DNA of 64,000 bases from Cytophagaceae bacterium (GTDB lineage: Bacteria > Bacteroidota > Bacteroidia > Cytophagales > UBA9547): positions 316,359 to 380,358 of the forward strand of contig JAIYAU010000025.1 in assembly GCA_027488865.1 (NCBI GenBank). The letters are read 5' to 3'. Both the position numbers and the translations under genes were made by a program. Positions 46,199 through 53,465 of the stretch are shown in pieces (positions within the stretch are counted from its first letter, which is position 1; each line of letters begins with the position of its first letter). Under the pieces are notes generated by a model that ran no database searches, was not told the DNA's origin, and worked only from the letters and a program-made list of their open reading frames with translations.

Positions 46199-46220
46199 AT
46201 TAATAGCATAAACAATAACC

Positions 46221-46589
46221 ATGAAAAATCTCCTTTTTATTACGCTTTGCTTTTTTTGCATGAATGCTAACGCACAGCAAGATATGTTTGGTAAAACACT
46301 CACAACAGCCTCTGAACAGAAAGCGCAAATTATGATCAGCAAGCTCGGTCAGCAGTTGAGCCTAGCAGAAGAACAAAAAAAGGCCTTGGAAGAAATCACC
46401 AGCGAATACCTGGATAATTTGCAGGAAATCAGTGGCGACGAAGACTATGCGGCGTTATCTCAAAAAATCACTGAAAGAAGGGACAAAAAAGTTAAAATAA
46501 TCCTACTCAATGATACTGATCTATTTGAATATCAAAAATGTATTACAGAAATATTGGCGTCACAGCGAAGAGGGTATGGACGTAGATAA
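46221..46589 (+). CDS. Spy/LTxxQ-like secreted protein, copy A
   Basis: 122 residues: signal peptide (MKNLLFITLCFFCMNANA, cleavage before QQ) and an all-helical mature part with SLAEEQKKALEEITSEYLD, then RRDKKVKIIL, reminiscent of Spy/CpxP-type periplasmic proteins and their LTxxQ repeats; that family link is inference. The protein ends RRGYGRR. About 90% identical to copy B at 52816, also with identical downstream sequence over about 25 bp and a dispersed repeat 63 bp after the stop. Confidence 0.8.
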   Translation: MKNLLFITLCFFCMNANAQQDMFGKTLTTASEQKAQIMISKLGQQLSLAEEQKKALEEITSEYLDNLQEISGDEDYAALSQKITERRDKKVKIILLNDTDLFEYQKCITEILASQRRGYGRR

Positions 46590-46651
46590 TTGACAAACAA
46601 CTAACGTTTTGTGTTGTCCTCTAGGATCATTCCCAATAAATTTTTTAAATA

Positions 46652-46920
46652 ATGCATTTACGGGCAATTTTTTTCGGGCAAAAAAAATTGCCCGTAAATT
46701 TTTGCCCGTAGTTTTGGGGCAAAATAAAATGATCAATAAAAATTGCCCGTAAAAAAATATAAAAATAGTTTTAAAACCTACAGGCTATTAAATTCGGCAA
46801 TTGTAAATCAATGCTACTTTACTTGCAACTAAAATAATTTAATATTGCAAACTTCAATCGCTTGTAGTTACATCGTATATTGGCGGAATAACCAAAGGGT
46901 TTGAATAATAAATGGAATGA
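46652..46920 (+). repeat. Dispersed hairpin repeat, copy 2
   Basis: Core 46660-46750 (ACGGGCAATTTTTTTCGGGC at its start) followed by an AT-rich tail to 46920 that ends ATAAATGGAATGATTAAG, 11 bp before the broken gene at 46936. Core arms are complementary (TTTTTTGCCCGT-like and ACGGGCAA). The tail holds TATATTGG at 46876-46883, matching the -7-like word of copy 4. Confidence 0.9.
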
Positions 46921-47418: not shown

Positions 47419-48381
47419 TTGTCTCGAATTCAGCAGTTCTCTAAAAAAGGCCTCAGATTGAGGTTTAGCCTCATTTCCCTTAGCAAAATAAATGCTTGGG
47501 AATTCAATATTTGGATAAAACAGGAAGTTATAAACCATTTTAGAACGCGAGTGAAACAACGAAAACTACTAAGTCAACGACATCCAATTTTATATTTTTT
47601 AGCCGTTTGGGCAAGACGGCTAAGACGTTATGCCGTCTGGTATTTTGACAATAAAAAATACGCTAAACAGCGGTCGACCGAAAAATTGGCTTTTAGAATT
47701 AAAAAACACCAATCTGTATTATTAAAAAAACTTGGTGAAAGCGATATGCAACTACAAGTAAATAAAATAACTAACTTGAAAATAGCAACAAAACGAATTG
47801 ACGGAATACTTATAAGACCAGGAGAAACTTTATCGTTCTGTAAACTTGTTGGCTTACCTACAAAACGAAAAGGATATTTACTAGGAATGGAACTGACTTT
47901 TGGCGAGGCAAAAGCAGGAATTGGTGGTGGCATTTGCCAAATTTCAAATTTAATTCATTGGCTTGTCATTCACAGTCCTTTGACCGTTACAGAACGATAT
48001 CATCATTCATTTGACCCTTTCCCTGACGATGGACGAGTTTTGCCATTCGGCAGTGGTGCAACAGTCTTTTATAATTACCGTGACTATCAATTTACGAACA
48101 ACACAAACTATACTTTCCAAATAAATTTATGGTTTACCGACAAATGTTTGGAAGGAGAACTTCGCATTGATAATGAACTAGACTATAGTTATCATGTAAC
48201 CGAAAAAGATCATCAATTTTTAAAAATAGACGGGCAATTTTATAGAAAAAACGAAATTTGGCGTGATAAAATTTTGAAATTCAAAAGCGGACAAATTGTG
48301 GAAACGGAATTAATAACTAAAAACTTTGCTCGAGTGATTTATACGCCTGACAATTATTTGGACCAAAATAAAAACGGCTAA
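47419..48381 (+). CDS. VanW family protein
   Basis: 320 residues. The VanW domain covers about 125-250: ILIRPGETLSFCKLVGLPTK, RKGYLLGMELTFGE, GIGGGICQISNLIHWLVI, then RYHHSFDPFPDDGRVLPFGS and ATVFYNYRDYQF. VanW occurs in some vancomycin-resistance clusters, but most homologues have no such context and no known function. The N-terminal 100 residues are very basic (RRLRRY, RVKQRKLL). TTG start. A 152-bp piece is duplicated at 40895-41046. Confidence 0.9.
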   Translation: MSRIQQFSKKGLRLRFSLISLSKINAWEFNIWIKQEVINHFRTRVKQRKLLSQRHPILYFLAVWARRLRRYAVWYFDNKKYAKQRSTEKLAFRIKKHQSVLLKKLGESDMQLQVNKITNLKIATKRIDGILIRPGETLSFCKLVGLPTKRKGYLLGMELTFGEAKAGIGGGICQISNLIHWLVIHSPLTVTERYHHSFDPFPDDGRVLPFGSGATVFYNYRDYQFTNNTNYTFQINLWFTDKCLEGELRIDNELDYSYHVTEKDHQFLKIDGQFYRKNEIWRDKILKFKSGQIVETELITKNFARVIYTPDNYLDQNKNG

Positions 48382-48700: not shown

Positions 48701-49240
48701 ATGAATGATCAGGAAATCATAAGCATTTTGAAATCTAGGAATCCTCAAATCGGACTCAAAGAATTATATAAACAATATACACCTATCAAAAAATTTATCA
48801 TCCATCATGGTGGTTCGGCTGACGATGCTTACGATACTTTTCAAGAAGCGATATTGGTTTTTTATGACAAAGTTCTACATACTGATTTCCAACTTACTAG
48901 TAGTATTGGCACCTATTTATTTAGTGTTTCCAAATACAAATGGAAAACGGTGTTAATAGCAAAAAACAGAATAAATGAATTTAAGAATATGTTTTCGGAA
49001 GTGGAAAATATTGTTGAAGAAAATGAATCTTATTTTGAAATGGCAGAAAATGCACTAGCAGAAATTGGCGAAAAGTGTAAATCTATTTTAGTCTCTTTCT
49101 ACCATCATAAACACAGTATGTCAATTATCGCAAGCAAGTATGGTTTTTCCTCTGAAAATGCTGCTAAAAATCAGAAATACAAATGCATAGAAAAAGCTCG
49201 AAATATATTTAAATCTCTTTTAGTTCAAACACTCATTTAA
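48701..49240 (+). CDS. ECF-type RNA polymerase sigma factor
   Basis: 179 residues: region 2 (LKELYKQYTPIKKFIIHHGG, SADDAYDTFQEAILVFYDKV, then GTYLFSVSKYKWKTVL) and region 4 HTH (KCKSILVSFYHHKHSMSIIA, SKYGFSSENAAKNQKYKCIEK). Sequence is divergent, as in the large family of Bacteroidota ECF factors. It is followed after 11 bp by a membrane protein whose N-terminus looks like an anti-sigma domain, the usual gene order. Confidence 0.9.
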   Translation: MNDQEIISILKSRNPQIGLKELYKQYTPIKKFIIHHGGSADDAYDTFQEAILVFYDKVLHTDFQLTSSIGTYLFSVSKYKWKTVLIAKNRINEFKNMFSEVENIVEENESYFEMAENALAEIGEKCKSILVSFYHHKHSMSIIASKYGFSSENAAKNQKYKCIEKARNIFKSLLVQTLI

Positions 49241-49251
49241 AGATTGTAAGT

Positions 49252-50520
49252 ATGAGAAATGAATTATATATGATAGAGCAGATTGAGCGTTTTTTAAATA
49301 ATGAACTCAATACCGAAGAAAAAGAATCTTTTACTAAAGAAATGGCTTTGGATAAAAACTTACACGAGAATGTGATGGCTCAGGAGGCGTTACAAAGGGC
49401 AATTACTAAACTCGGCCTACAAGAAGAAATTATCAAGGCGGGTAAAAGTTACCGTAAAGCAATAAAAATCAAAATCGCGGTTGGGATTATTGCAGGTTTA
49501 GGTTTGGCTGGTGTTGCTGGATTTGCCATTTTTAAACTTTTACAACAAGATGTTGCGGCAAGCCCCGAAATTAAATTTGACAATAGTACTCAAAAAACTA
49601 GTATTCAGGGTACAAATAAGATTTTGAATTCTGAAATAATAGATAGTACCAATCATGTTGTTGCTCCAAAATCTACTATTCATATTACAGCAGAAAATAA
49701 GGAAAATAGCAAACTAACTGTTGTTTCTAAACTTTCAACCATTAGTTCAGATACTCTTTCAAATAATGCAATTACGGAAAATATTGAACAAAAGAACAGT
49801 TTAAATGTGGTGGATAATCCAAATATCAAAATTGCAAAGTCAGAAACGGTTTCTTTACATAATGCAAAATATATCCCTCAAAAACCGAACAGAAAAGGTG
49901 AAACCAAATTTGACGATTGGATTGAAAGTATTGGGGGTGTTTTTTATAATTGGGGATCGTTTTTTAAATCAAAACAAAAAAATGATAAAAACAAAATTGA
50001 AACTGCCACTATCACCATTGCCAATAAACTTAAAGAAGATATCAATATTTTTTGGGTCAATGATAAGAACACAGAAATTTACTATAAGTCACTCAGGCCC
50101 AACGCAGGGTATGTTCAAGAAACATACCTTGGGCACCTGTGGAGAATTAAAACCAACAATAAGCTTGATAAAGTTATTGAATTTAGAATCACCAAACGTA
50201 ATCAACATTTTGATAACCAGGGGGTAGTTTCACAGGAGAAATATAAAAAAACGCAAAAGGATATATTTTGGGAACCAGTTTTTAAAGAGGCCATTACTGC
50301 AAGTACTATAACTGTAAAAAATGCTTTGAAAGAAGCGGTGGCAGTTTACTGGTTAGATTATAGAAATGATGAAATACAATATTTCAAACTGGCACCTGAT
50401 GAAGAAATACAACAACAAACTTTTCTTGATCAGAATTGGCGCATTAGGAAGCAAAGTGATTCTACATTAGTGCTCCAATTCACAGTTAAAAAACTGGAAG
50501 AATATTTTGAAGTAAAGTAA
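49252..50520 (+). CDS. Anti-sigma-like membrane protein with two VHL-beta-like domains
   Basis: 422 residues. An N-terminal helical cytosolic part (about 1-68, IERFLNNELNTEEKESFTKE), one membrane helix (75-96), a long low-complexity periplasmic stretch rich in Ser, Asn and Thr, and two repeats (about 250-318 and 350-420). Repeat 1 has INIFWVNDKN, YYKSLRPNAGYVQETYLGHL then WRIK; repeat 2 has VAVYWLDYRN, YFKLAPDEEIQQQTFLDQNW then RIRK. This closely follows the VHL beta domain (WLNFDG, LPPGT, YRGHLWLFR). The order suggests an envelope-sensing anti-sigma factor. The N-terminus lacks a zinc anti-sigma motif. Confidence 0.82.
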   Translation: MRNELYMIEQIERFLNNELNTEEKESFTKEMALDKNLHENVMAQEALQRAITKLGLQEEIIKAGKSYRKAIKIKIAVGIIAGLGLAGVAGFAIFKLLQQDVAASPEIKFDNSTQKTSIQGTNKILNSEIIDSTNHVVAPKSTIHITAENKENSKLTVVSKLSTISSDTLSNNAITENIEQKNSLNVVDNPNIKIAKSETVSLHNAKYIPQKPNRKGETKFDDWIESIGGVFYNWGSFFKSKQKNDKNKIETATITIANKLKEDINIFWVNDKNTEIYYKSLRPNAGYVQETYLGHLWRIKTNNKLDKVIEFRITKRNQHFDNQGVVSQEKYKKTQKDIFWEPVFKEAITASTITVKNALKEAVAVYWLDYRNDEIQYFKLAPDEEIQQQTFLDQNWRIRKQSDSTLVLQFTVKKLEEYFEVK

Positions 50521-50613
50521 CTCGAAGAGATATGTTTGTCTTTCTTGGGATGATAAACAAATTACTTTAAAGGCACTTTACTAATTTAATTGACTCGTTA
50601 ATATACAATTACA

Positions 50614-52632
50614 ATGAATAATAAAATGATAAAAACAGCGGTATTTGTGTTGTTTTTAATTAATACAATTACAGCCAATGGGCAAGGAAATAACACCTTA
50701 TTGGTAGATGATTTTGAGGTCTTTGGATTCAAAAATAAATTTAACCTGTATTGGCAATATTACACTGATGTAGTTAATAAAGGGAAGTCTGAAATAAAAT
50801 TTTACGATGAAACCGAAGGGAATAACAAGGTAATGCGAGTTGATTACAAATTGAATAAAGCGGACTGTCCTTTTAAGGCTTACGTTGTTATAAGTAGTCC
50901 TGTAAAACCCGAAACGGTTGATTCTGCTAATTTTAAAGCGATCGCTTATGATTTTAAAGGTGATGAGCACACATTTATGTACCGACTTACTACAGTGAAA
51001 GATTATGCATTTCACGAAAAAACTATCAATTTTTCTGACGATTGGCAAACTGTTATTATTCCTTTTTCGGAGTTAAAACAACCATGGGGTAACCCTGTGC
51101 CATTTAATAAAAATTTAGTTGAAACCTTACAATGGCAAGTGGTTAGTTATAGCAATGATACTGGTTATTTTCATCTGGATAATGTGCGTTTGGTAAAAGA
51201 TATTGACAAATTCAAAGCTGATTTAAAACGGACAAATCCACCTTATAATTTTGACACCACTTTCTCTGCTGAGGCTGTGAAGAAAGATATAATTTCATTC
51301 AAAAATGGATTAGAAGAGGTACATCCTAACCTATATCGTTACATTTCTAAACAATCGTTAGATTCCTTATTTAATACGACAATACAATCAATCAACACAC
51401 CTCTTACTGCGGCCCAAGCTTTACTAAAAATAAAACCTTTAAAGATTGCCATAAAAGATGGTTTTGAAGTTGCAATGCCAAGTAAATTTGTTTCTGAGCT
51501 TGAACTCAATAAATTATTTCCTTTTGATATTAAAATATTCAATGGTAAACTCTATGTATTCAGAAATTATTCTTCTGATTTGTCAATTAAAAAAGGTGAT
51601 GAAATAGTTTCTATTAATAATCAGTCTTCATCAGAAATTATAAAAAATATGATTGCTCAATGTTCGAATACTGGCTACATTACTTCAAAATCAAAATACT
51701 ACGTTGAATGGGGGTTTAATACATTATTTCCCACACTTTATGGTATTAGTGAGTCTTTTCAATTAGAATTTAAAAATTCCAAAGGGGTAATATTAACGCA
51801 AAAAATAAAAGGTCAAAGTGCTGACAGCATAGCGTATTATAAAAAAAATAGATTTAAAGAATACGATATTGAACCTTACAAATTAAGCATTGATAAAAAG
51901 AAAAGTGTTGCTACTTTAAAAATTTCAAGCTTTAGGGATGAGGATTTATACACTTATAAATATAATTTTTACTTATTCTTGCAGGCGTCATTTACTGAAA
52001 TCAGTAAGAAAAAAATTGAAAATCTAATTCTAGATTTACGCAATGCCAAAGGTGGAGACGGCTTTAATGCTTTAGAACTTATGAAATATGTAAGTGTAAA
52101 AGATTTTTATTTTTTGGATTCATTACGATTAAAAATCAATAAAAAGCCTTCTTTTTTTAAAGGAAGAAACCCAATACATATTGGGAGTGGTTTTGTAAAG
52201 CGAGGGACTGGCTATTATGGATATGAATCTATGATAAAGAATTATGAAAACAAATCACCCATTAGTCACTATAAATCTAATTTTACTGGAAAAATATTTG
52301 TGTTGATTAATGGAGAAAGTTATTCTCCATCTAACATGCTAAGCTCTGTATTAAAAGCGCAGCCAAAAGTAGTTTTTATTGGAGATGAGTTAATAAGTGA
52401 ACGTTTGGAACATTGTGGTTACGGTGCACCTTATATTTTACCAAACACCAAAATAATCGCCTACATTCCCGTTCAAAACTATTATTATTCAAAATCAGCT
52501 CATGAGAAATATCAAAAAGGGAGAGGTTTAATGCCTGATTATGAAATGCAAGAAGATCTTGAGAGTTTCATAAAAGGAAAAGATAATATTATGGAATTCA
52601 CTTTAGATCTCATTAAAAAATCAGTTCATTAA
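50614..52632 (+). CDS. Secreted CIA30-like / S41-peptidase-like fusion protein
   Basis: 672 residues: signal peptide (MNNKMIKTAVFVLFLINTIT), a CIA30-like beta-sandwich (about 30-195, from LLVDDFEVFG to YFHLDNVRLVKD), a helical linker with HPNLYRYIS, a short PDZ-like segment (LSIKKGDEIVSINNQSSSEI) and a C-terminal S41-type core (LILDLRNAKGGDGF about residue 470; INGESYSPSNMLSS about 565-580 with the expected nucleophile serine, then YGAPYILPNTKI). The catalytic Lys/Glu were not confirmed. It lies 93 bp after the sigma/anti-sigma pair on the same strand and may be its target or sensor protease. Confidence 0.85.
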   Translation: MNNKMIKTAVFVLFLINTITANGQGNNTLLVDDFEVFGFKNKFNLYWQYYTDVVNKGKSEIKFYDETEGNNKVMRVDYKLNKADCPFKAYVVISSPVKPETVDSANFKAIAYDFKGDEHTFMYRLTTVKDYAFHEKTINFSDDWQTVIIPFSELKQPWGNPVPFNKNLVETLQWQVVSYSNDTGYFHLDNVRLVKDIDKFKADLKRTNPPYNFDTTFSAEAVKKDIISFKNGLEEVHPNLYRYISKQSLDSLFNTTIQSINTPLTAAQALLKIKPLKIAIKDGFEVAMPSKFVSELELNKLFPFDIKIFNGKLYVFRNYSSDLSIKKGDEIVSINNQSSSEIIKNMIAQCSNTGYITSKSKYYVEWGFNTLFPTLYGISESFQLEFKNSKGVILTQKIKGQSADSIAYYKKNRFKEYDIEPYKLSIDKKKSVATLKISSFRDEDLYTYKYNFYLFLQASFTEISKKKIENLILDLRNAKGGDGFNALELMKYVSVKDFYFLDSLRLKINKKPSFFKGRNPIHIGSGFVKRGTGYYGYESMIKNYENKSPISHYKSNFTGKIFVLINGESYSPSNMLSSVLKAQPKVVFIGDELISERLEHCGYGAPYILPNTKIIAYIPVQNYYYSKSAHEKYQKGRGLMPDYEMQEDLESFIKGKDNIMEFTLDLIKKSVH

Positions 52633-52688: not shown

Positions 52689-52830
52689 AATGAAAACACT
52701 TCTATTATCCTGATGGACTAATAAAACAAACAATAGCAATGAAAATTCTCTTTTTAATTCAAAACAAATAATAACCATGAAAAATCTCTTTTTTAATTCA
52801 AAAGAAACAACAACCATGAAAAATCTCCTT
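52689..52830 (+). repeat. Reiterated translation-start segments
   Basis: ATG codons with near-identical following bases (ATGAAAAWTCTCYTTTTTA-type) occur at 52739, 52777 and 52816, spaced 38 and 39 bp, each preceded by an ACAAnna-type word; a weaker relative is at 52689. The copies at 52739 and 52689 read only 10 and 7 codons. Copy A at 46221 has a single such start. This looks like tandem duplication of the 5' end of the Spy-like gene. Confidence 0.7.
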
Positions 52831-53184
52831 TTTATTACACTTTGCTTTTTTTGCATGAATGCCAACGCACAGCAAGGTATGTTTGGTAAAACACTTACCA
52901 CAGCGTCTGAACAAAAAGCGCAAATTATGATCAGCAAGCTCAGTCAGCAGTTGAGCATATCGGAAGAACAAAAAAAGGCCTTGGAAGAAATCACCAGCGA
53001 ATATCTTGATAATTTGCAGGAAATCAGCGGCGACGAAGACTATGCGGCGTTATCTCAAAAAATCACTGAAAGAAGAGACAAAAAAGTTAAATTGATCCTA
53101 ATTAATGATACTGATGTACTTGAATATCAGAAATGTATTGCTGAAATTTTAGCGTCTCAGAAAAGAGGCTATGGACGAAGATAA
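52816..53184 (+). CDS. Spy/LTxxQ-like secreted protein, copy B
   Basis: 122 residues from the ATG at 52816, which gives the same signal peptide as copy A; an in-frame ATG 39 bp upstream would add 13 residues from the reiterated start segments (MKNLFFNSKETTT) and is less likely used. It differs from copy A at a few positions (for example SISEEQ for SLAEEQ, RGYGRR unchanged). Mature protein all-helical and charged. The dispersed repeat copy 3 begins 45 bp after its stop. Confidence 0.8.
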   Translation: MKNLLFITLCFFCMNANAQQGMFGKTLTTASEQKAQIMISKLSQQLSISEEQKKALEEITSEYLDNLQEISGDEDYAALSQKITERRDKKVKLILINDTDVLEYQKCIAEILASQKRGYGRR

Positions 53185-53228: not shown

Positions 53229-53465
53229 GGATAAACTTTTTTCCATTATTTTTTTTAATCGTCGCATTTACGGGCAATTTTTTACGGGCAAAAAAAATTG
53301 CCCGTAAAAAAAATTTAAATCAGTTGTAAAACCTTTAGACAAATAAATTACGACCATAGTAAATCAACGCTACTTTACTAGCAATTAAAATGATTTACTT
53401 TTGATTTTTTAAGCACTTGTGATTAACTTGTATTGGCGGAATAAACGTAGGTTTTAATAGATAAG
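53229..53465 (+). repeat. Dispersed hairpin repeat, copy 3
   Basis: Lead-in TGGATAAACTTTTTTCCATT as in copy 1, then a shortened core (53270-53307; ACGGGCAA with TTGCCCGT, one hairpin only) and an AT-rich tail with GTAAATCAACGCTACTTTAC-like words shared with copy 2. It ends 47 bp before the Crp-type gene. Confidence 0.85.

Follow-up and report, generated by a model that had tools for sequence, protein, structure and literature searches.

Why should the VHL beta domain, known from animal oxygen sensing as a reader of hydroxyproline, occur twice in a bacterial membrane protein whose gene directly follows that of a sigma factor? We addressed this question for a 64,000-nt stretch of a Cytophagaceae bacterium genome (contig JAIYAU010000025.1), referred to as the window, in which all coordinates are given unless a locus label such as L003 precedes them. 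An earlier note on this DNA, made from the sequence alone, had placed here three co-directional open reading frames on the + strand, and these are borne out at the positions it gave: P0001 (48701-49240, 179 residues), P0002 (49252-50520, 422 residues) and P0003 (50614-52632, 672 residues). P0002 carries two VHL beta domains, and we read P0001 and P0002 as a sigma/anti-sigma pair in which these domains would act as a ligand sensor that triggers sigma release, with a probability of roughly 0.65. The features of the pair are as follows.

48701..49240, + strand: P0001, sigma factor of the extracytoplasmic function (ECF) type, 179 residues (TIGR02937 profile; homologues precede relatives of the P0002 N-terminus)
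49252..50520, + strand: P0002, transmembrane anti-sigma-like receptor (putative), 422 residues
49252..49461, + strand: P0002 residues 1-70, predicted cytoplasmic anti-sigma-like region (homologous to the N-terminal regions of membrane proteins linked to ECF sigma genes)
49468..49542, + strand: P0002 residues about 73-97, single predicted membrane helix (hydrophobic stretch IKIAVGIIAGLGLAGVAGFAIFKLL)
49543..49998, + strand: P0002 residues 98-249, low-complexity linker of ~150 residues, read from the sequence
49999..50214, + strand: P0002 residues 250-321, VHL beta domain 1, or repeat 1 (profile, predicted fold, pocket residues)
50299..50493, + strand: P0002 residues 350-414, VHL beta domain 2, or repeat 2 (score of profiles built without window sequences)

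VHL beta domains and the scaffold that carries them

The Pfam VHL model (PF01847) matches P0002 over two stretches with E=1.6e-7 and 31.6 bits (cut-off 21). Scored singly, repeat 1 reaches 21.3 bits and repeat 2 17.3 bits, and because each repeat alone lies near the threshold, a Pfam VHL search of the bacterium's own genome returned nothing at the default limit; P0002 was recovered at E=0.0013 in another search. Circularity was avoided by building VHL profiles that left out the window sequences; these gave 45.9 bits for repeat 1 (250-321) and 54.1 bits for repeat 2 (350-414), and profiles made from non-Bacteroidota VHL domains only still gave 36.1 and 37.3 bits, against best scores of 9.1 and 8.6 bits among 2000 shuffles of P0002. 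The boundaries of 250-318 and 350-420 given in the earlier note agree with those of the profiles. When the PDB was searched with a profile built from the five domains collected first (both window repeats plus three domains of other genomes), human pVHL was the best match (E=0.006).

An AlphaFold2 model of repeat 1, made from 31 aligned domains, has seven strands, a predicted local distance difference test (pLDDT) score of 88.6 and a predicted template-modelling (pTM) score of 0.76. All 50 Foldseek hits among the matches listed are pVHL (E down to 1.3e-5), and VIA-align superposes the model on pVHL residues 68-155 with Z 11.8 and a root-mean-square deviation of 1.7 A over 79 residues; tied pVHL chains rank top and no other family appears among the matches listed. 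A transthyretin-type or other beta-sandwich was dropped as an assignment since every top structural match of repeat 1 is pVHL. Repeat 1 is thus predicted to have the VHL beta-sandwich fold, and repeat 2 is a VHL beta domain by its profile score. The claim of two such domains is confirmed, by profile for both repeats and by predicted fold for repeat 1, at a level far above chance.

From the basic residues on the N-terminal side of the helix, the VHL domains are expected to be extracytoplasmic, so that the topology read from the sequence supports the periplasmic placement proposed before. Homologues have a comparable membrane helix at the same place after the N-terminal region, and the linker that follows it in P0002 (residues 98-249) has no family match in Pfam. 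The C-terminus of the protein falls inside repeat 2 or directly behind it; Pfam matches nothing in it besides VHL, and neither this search nor inspection of the protein end found an alpha domain of the kind that binds elongin C. We accordingly class P0002 among VHL beta-domain proteins and not among pVHL orthologues.

Upstream, P0001 matches the sigma70-ECF superfamily model TIGR02937 at 2.3e-9 with 37.1 bits, slightly below the curated cut-off of 42.9, and only 11 bases separate its stop codon from the start of P0002. With full-length P0002 as query, 390 genomes of the order were searched, and the loci that matched its N-terminal region or its VHL part were collected. In 17 of 18 distinct non-self loci with an N-terminal match, a P0001 homologue lies directly upstream on the same strand; the one exception looks like a spurious match to another kind of membrane protein. 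The C-termini of these N-terminal relatives vary (cytochrome c, TPR, FlgD/CHU_C-like), and none is VHL. The window's genome itself holds a second pair of the same type (L003:2130-5129), whose anti-sigma protein of 818 residues ends in a cytochrome c domain, which suggests a redox or haem-linked sensor. The anti-sigma-like nature of the P0002 N-terminus is therefore supported by its homologues, which adjoin ECF sigma genes. On our reading the VHL pair would be a sensor module swapped onto a modular anti-sigma scaffold whose relatives bear other C-terminal parts, and P0002 is probably an anti-sigma receptor spanning the membrane, which would bind P0001 and sense through its VHL domains.

The earlier note had looked to the context of homologues for a link to sigma factors, and here the two parts of P0002 differ: relatives of the N-terminus are linked to sigma genes, those of the VHL part are not. 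A P0001-type sigma gene lies within the several kilobases of flank in 1 of 21 other VHL regions, on the opposite strand beside a TonB receptor gene, as judged with a profile derived from the P0001 group that more distant sigma factors could escape. We count this case (L095) as coincidence; in its sister locus, L094, another sigma-like open reading frame occupies that place. A general association between VHL domains and sigma factors is not supported.

The hydroxyproline pocket and other bacterial VHL domains

In pVHL the hydroxyproline site comprises Trp88, Tyr98, His110, Ser111, His115 and Trp117, with the hydroxyl bound by Ser111 and His115 (PMC9528729), and the pocket positions, Ile109 included and His110 left out, hardly vary among animals (PMC6650433). 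Repeat 1 keeps all five of the residues equivalent to W88, Y98, S111, H115 and W117 (W268, Y278, T291, H295 and W297). The corresponding residues of repeat 2 are W367, Y377, T390, Q394 and W396, with Q394 at the H115 position.

Across 31 bacterial VHL domains, the five columns of lowest entropy are N78 (31/31), W88 (30/31), S/T111 (26 Thr and 5 Ser), H115 (27/31) and W117 (26/31). The Y98 position holds Tyr in 20 of the 31 (conservation rank 15 of 57), the Ile109 position is mostly Gln (Gln289 in repeat 1) and His110 is not conserved, while neighbouring columns vary freely (P99 rank 53, R108 rank 51 of 57). Ten of the 31 domains came from a motif-pattern scan, and the count was repeated without them; the pattern persists in the 21 domains not fetched by motif patterns (W 20, T/S 21, H 18, W 16). 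This conservation favours a genuine ligand site in repeat 1. A conserved pocket does not prove a ligand, and the changes from Ser to Thr and from Ile109 to Gln could alter which ligand is bound.

VHL beta domains are rare in Bacteroidota, occurring in 7 of 311 genomes of the order and 7 of 385 of the class, and, with a narrower profile, in 3 of 395 genomes of a phylum sample (the window's genome counted each time). A pattern scan of 84,980 species also found them in Nannocystis, other proteobacteria, Actinoplanes, Planctomycetia and Herpetosiphon, at loci biased toward the motifs of the hand-made rows that its alignment included; a scan with P0002 itself returned no relative in genome contigs, viral contigs or plasmids. 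The proteins that hold the other bacterial domains begin with a signal peptide or a lipoprotein start, and the VHL domain often forms the C-terminal module of a secreted enzyme. Among the hosts are small lipoproteins, secreted metallopeptidase-like proteins, one CAP and one DUF4440 protein, and a frame of 2002 residues. Such secreted and lipoprotein hosts fit an extracytoplasmic binding role.

Secreted proteins resembling HExxH metallopeptidases, from Bacteroidota and one planctomycete (L006, L009, L029, L046 and L047), all have a VHL domain at the C-terminus, a combination of enzyme and VHL that recurs. The 2002-residue frame (L102:6396-12401, genome G705) has as many as nine VHL-like domains in tandem, of which several are degenerate. 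A bacterial VHL protein already in print, EMK97_00595 of Litorilituus sediminis, was interpreted there as a tumour suppressor (PMC9002001), a reading that its secretion does not support.

Proposed signalling and its alternatives

In the model that we favour, the cytoplasmic N-terminus of P0002 would hold the ECF sigma factor P0001 at the inner membrane at rest, and the outer part, a flexible tether with two terminal VHL beta domains, would be the sensor. The aromatic pocket of domain 1 would hold a ligand, in all likelihood a peptide or glycopeptide; once bound it would change or expose the tether, P0002 would be cleaved or rearranged, and the freed P0001 would transcribe its target genes. Release would thus follow the manner of RsgI (PMC12203970), through a tether like the one in Dma proteins (PMC13088901). 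Several results weigh against this proposal. Domain 2 has lost the pocket histidine, replaced by Q394. Residues 1-110 of P0002 match no named anti-sigma family in Pfam, and a PDB profile search with the N-terminus gave nothing significant (best anti-sigma match RsrA, E=0.36); short helical anti-sigma domains of Bacteroidota may escape existing models. Finally, neither the Bacteroidota genomes searched nor the pattern scan of 84,980 species yielded a second VHL-anti-sigma fusion, so synteny cannot support the pairing of the VHL sensor with P0001.

The lost histidine in domain 2 would also suit an arrangement in which the VHL pair merely anchors or scaffolds P0002 by binding, through a protein-protein interface, one of the cell's own envelope proteins, with the true signal (envelope stress, protease access) acting on the tether. 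That tether is long and of low complexity, and VHL domains are often attached to enzymes and lipoproteins, where docking is as easy to imagine as sensing. We consider such an anchor unlikely, however, because domain 1 keeps five pocket residues which, N78 aside, are the most conserved in bacteria (Y98 less so, at the rank given above), and conservation of this kind is better explained by a small ligand shared between them than by varied protein surfaces. It is likewise doubtful that W88, T111, H115 and W117 are kept only for folding of the beta-sandwich core, in a domain with no fixed ligand: the invariant N78 and a glycine near position 93 do look structural, and Y98 varies in the tandem-repeat VHL protein, but in pVHL these residues line and contact the hydroxyproline site (PMC9528729), and the columns adjacent to them, P99 and R108 among them, vary freely. 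Very improbable, in our view, is that P0002 is a membrane-anchored VHL protein lying beside a sigma gene by chance, its N-terminus being no anti-sigma domain. The absence of a match between that N-terminus and any named anti-sigma family in Pfam or the PDB would fit, yet a homologous sigma gene stands directly upstream on the same strand at 17 of 18 other loci, including the second pair in the same genome.

Returning to the sensor model, the VHL pair may sense a peptide or glycan, and hydroxyproline in an external protein is the sharpest testable guess at the ligand, although one that we consider unlikely to hold. Improbable, too, is the broader idea that bacterial VHL domains form a wide extracytoplasmic hydroxyproline-recognition family, here mounted on an anti-sigma factor, so that genes would be switched by a hydroxyproline-containing protein outside the cell, such as collagen or the hydroxyproline-rich glycoproteins of plants and algae. 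The possibility that a prolyl hydroxylase inside the cell makes the ligand was dropped, given that the genome has no PF13640 match; other oxygenase families were not searched.

VHL domains in bacteria (in Pfam and in print) and anti-sigma factors with exchangeable sensors are both already known. P0002 resembles human pVHL (PF01847) in the whole-domain fold predicted for repeat 1 and in the domain 1 pocket (W88, Y98, S111 as Thr, H115, W117), and differs from it in its expected extracytoplasmic placement, the lack of a ubiquitin context and of a detectable elongin C-binding alpha domain, the Gln that most bacterial copies have for Ile109, and the Gln for H115 in domain 2. The RsgI anti-sigma factors of Clostridium thermocellum have the same overall plan with other sensors (PMC12203970): an N-terminal sigma-binding region, one membrane helix and an outer C-terminal sensor that varies among paralogues. 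Unlike them, P0002 has an ECF-type partner instead of SigI, no RsgI Pfam match, and VHL domains in place of carbohydrate-binding modules. The Dma dual membrane-spanning anti-sigma factors of Bacteroides (PMC13088901), also from Bacteroidota, share with it the anti-sigma region, single helix, long disordered tether and ECF partner, but end in an outer-membrane beta-barrel where P0002 ends in two VHL domains. EMK97_00595 (PMC9002001) is likewise a bacterial protein with an extracytoplasmic VHL beta domain, but is soluble and secreted, with neither membrane helix nor anti-sigma region. Our literature search, outside which many subscription papers lay, turned up neither an anti-sigma factor described with a VHL sensor nor any account of VHL pocket conservation in bacteria. 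With the pocket kept in secreted or periplasmic proteins across several phyla and joined here to a putative gene switch, VHL ligands outside the HIF pathway become testable, as does the question of whether bacteria sense hydroxyproline-containing proteins; on the reading proposed here, VHL would be able to act as a plug-in sensor on anti-sigma factors.

The third gene and the surrounding segment

The gene downstream of the pair, and the site before it, are as follows.

50506..50538, + strand: promoter-like site of the Bacteroidota type, TTTG-N21-TATGTTTG (perfect pattern match before P0003)
50614..52632, + strand: P0003, secreted protein with a CIA30-like module and a degenerate S41 peptidase-like domain, 672 residues (Pfam)

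P0003 has a signal peptide and matches the Pfam families S41 (1.7e-13) and CIA30 (1.1e-7). In the S41 domain the serine (S571) is retained, but F284 stands at the position where 18 of 19 homologues have the catalytic His, and the GEETGG motif has been lost. P0003 is probably inactive as a protease, and residues 201-672 (51214-52632) are likely a pseudo-peptidase fused to the CIA30-like module. In the same genome, N-terminal modules of the P0003 type precede polysaccharide deacetylase-like and GH5-type glycosidase-like proteins (names given to motifs read by eye), and the CIA30-like module may for this reason be predicted to bind carbohydrate.

The gap between P0002 and P0003 is 93 bases. The promoter-like site before P0003 was found with the generally known Bacteroidota promoter pattern, perfect matches to which number 10 in the window against 7.4 expected by chance, so that by its position the site is suggestive only. 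The earlier note had cast P0003 as a working protease and the third member of a signalling unit; with Phe in place of the catalytic His, and with a promoter-pattern match before the gene, a three-gene unit with an active protease was dropped, and any link of P0003 to the receptor pair is uncertain.

Upstream of P0001, on the same strand, lies a gene for a VanW-like protein (47419-48381; PF04294, 1e-38). Two copies of a small secreted-protein gene, 93% identical (46210-46509 and 52805-53104) and each followed by a weaker repeat (46630-46794 and 53240-53349), stand about 6.6 kb apart, with the genes for VanW, the sigma and anti-sigma proteins and S41 between them. Given these flanking copies, the segment that holds the module may have been duplicated or recombined.

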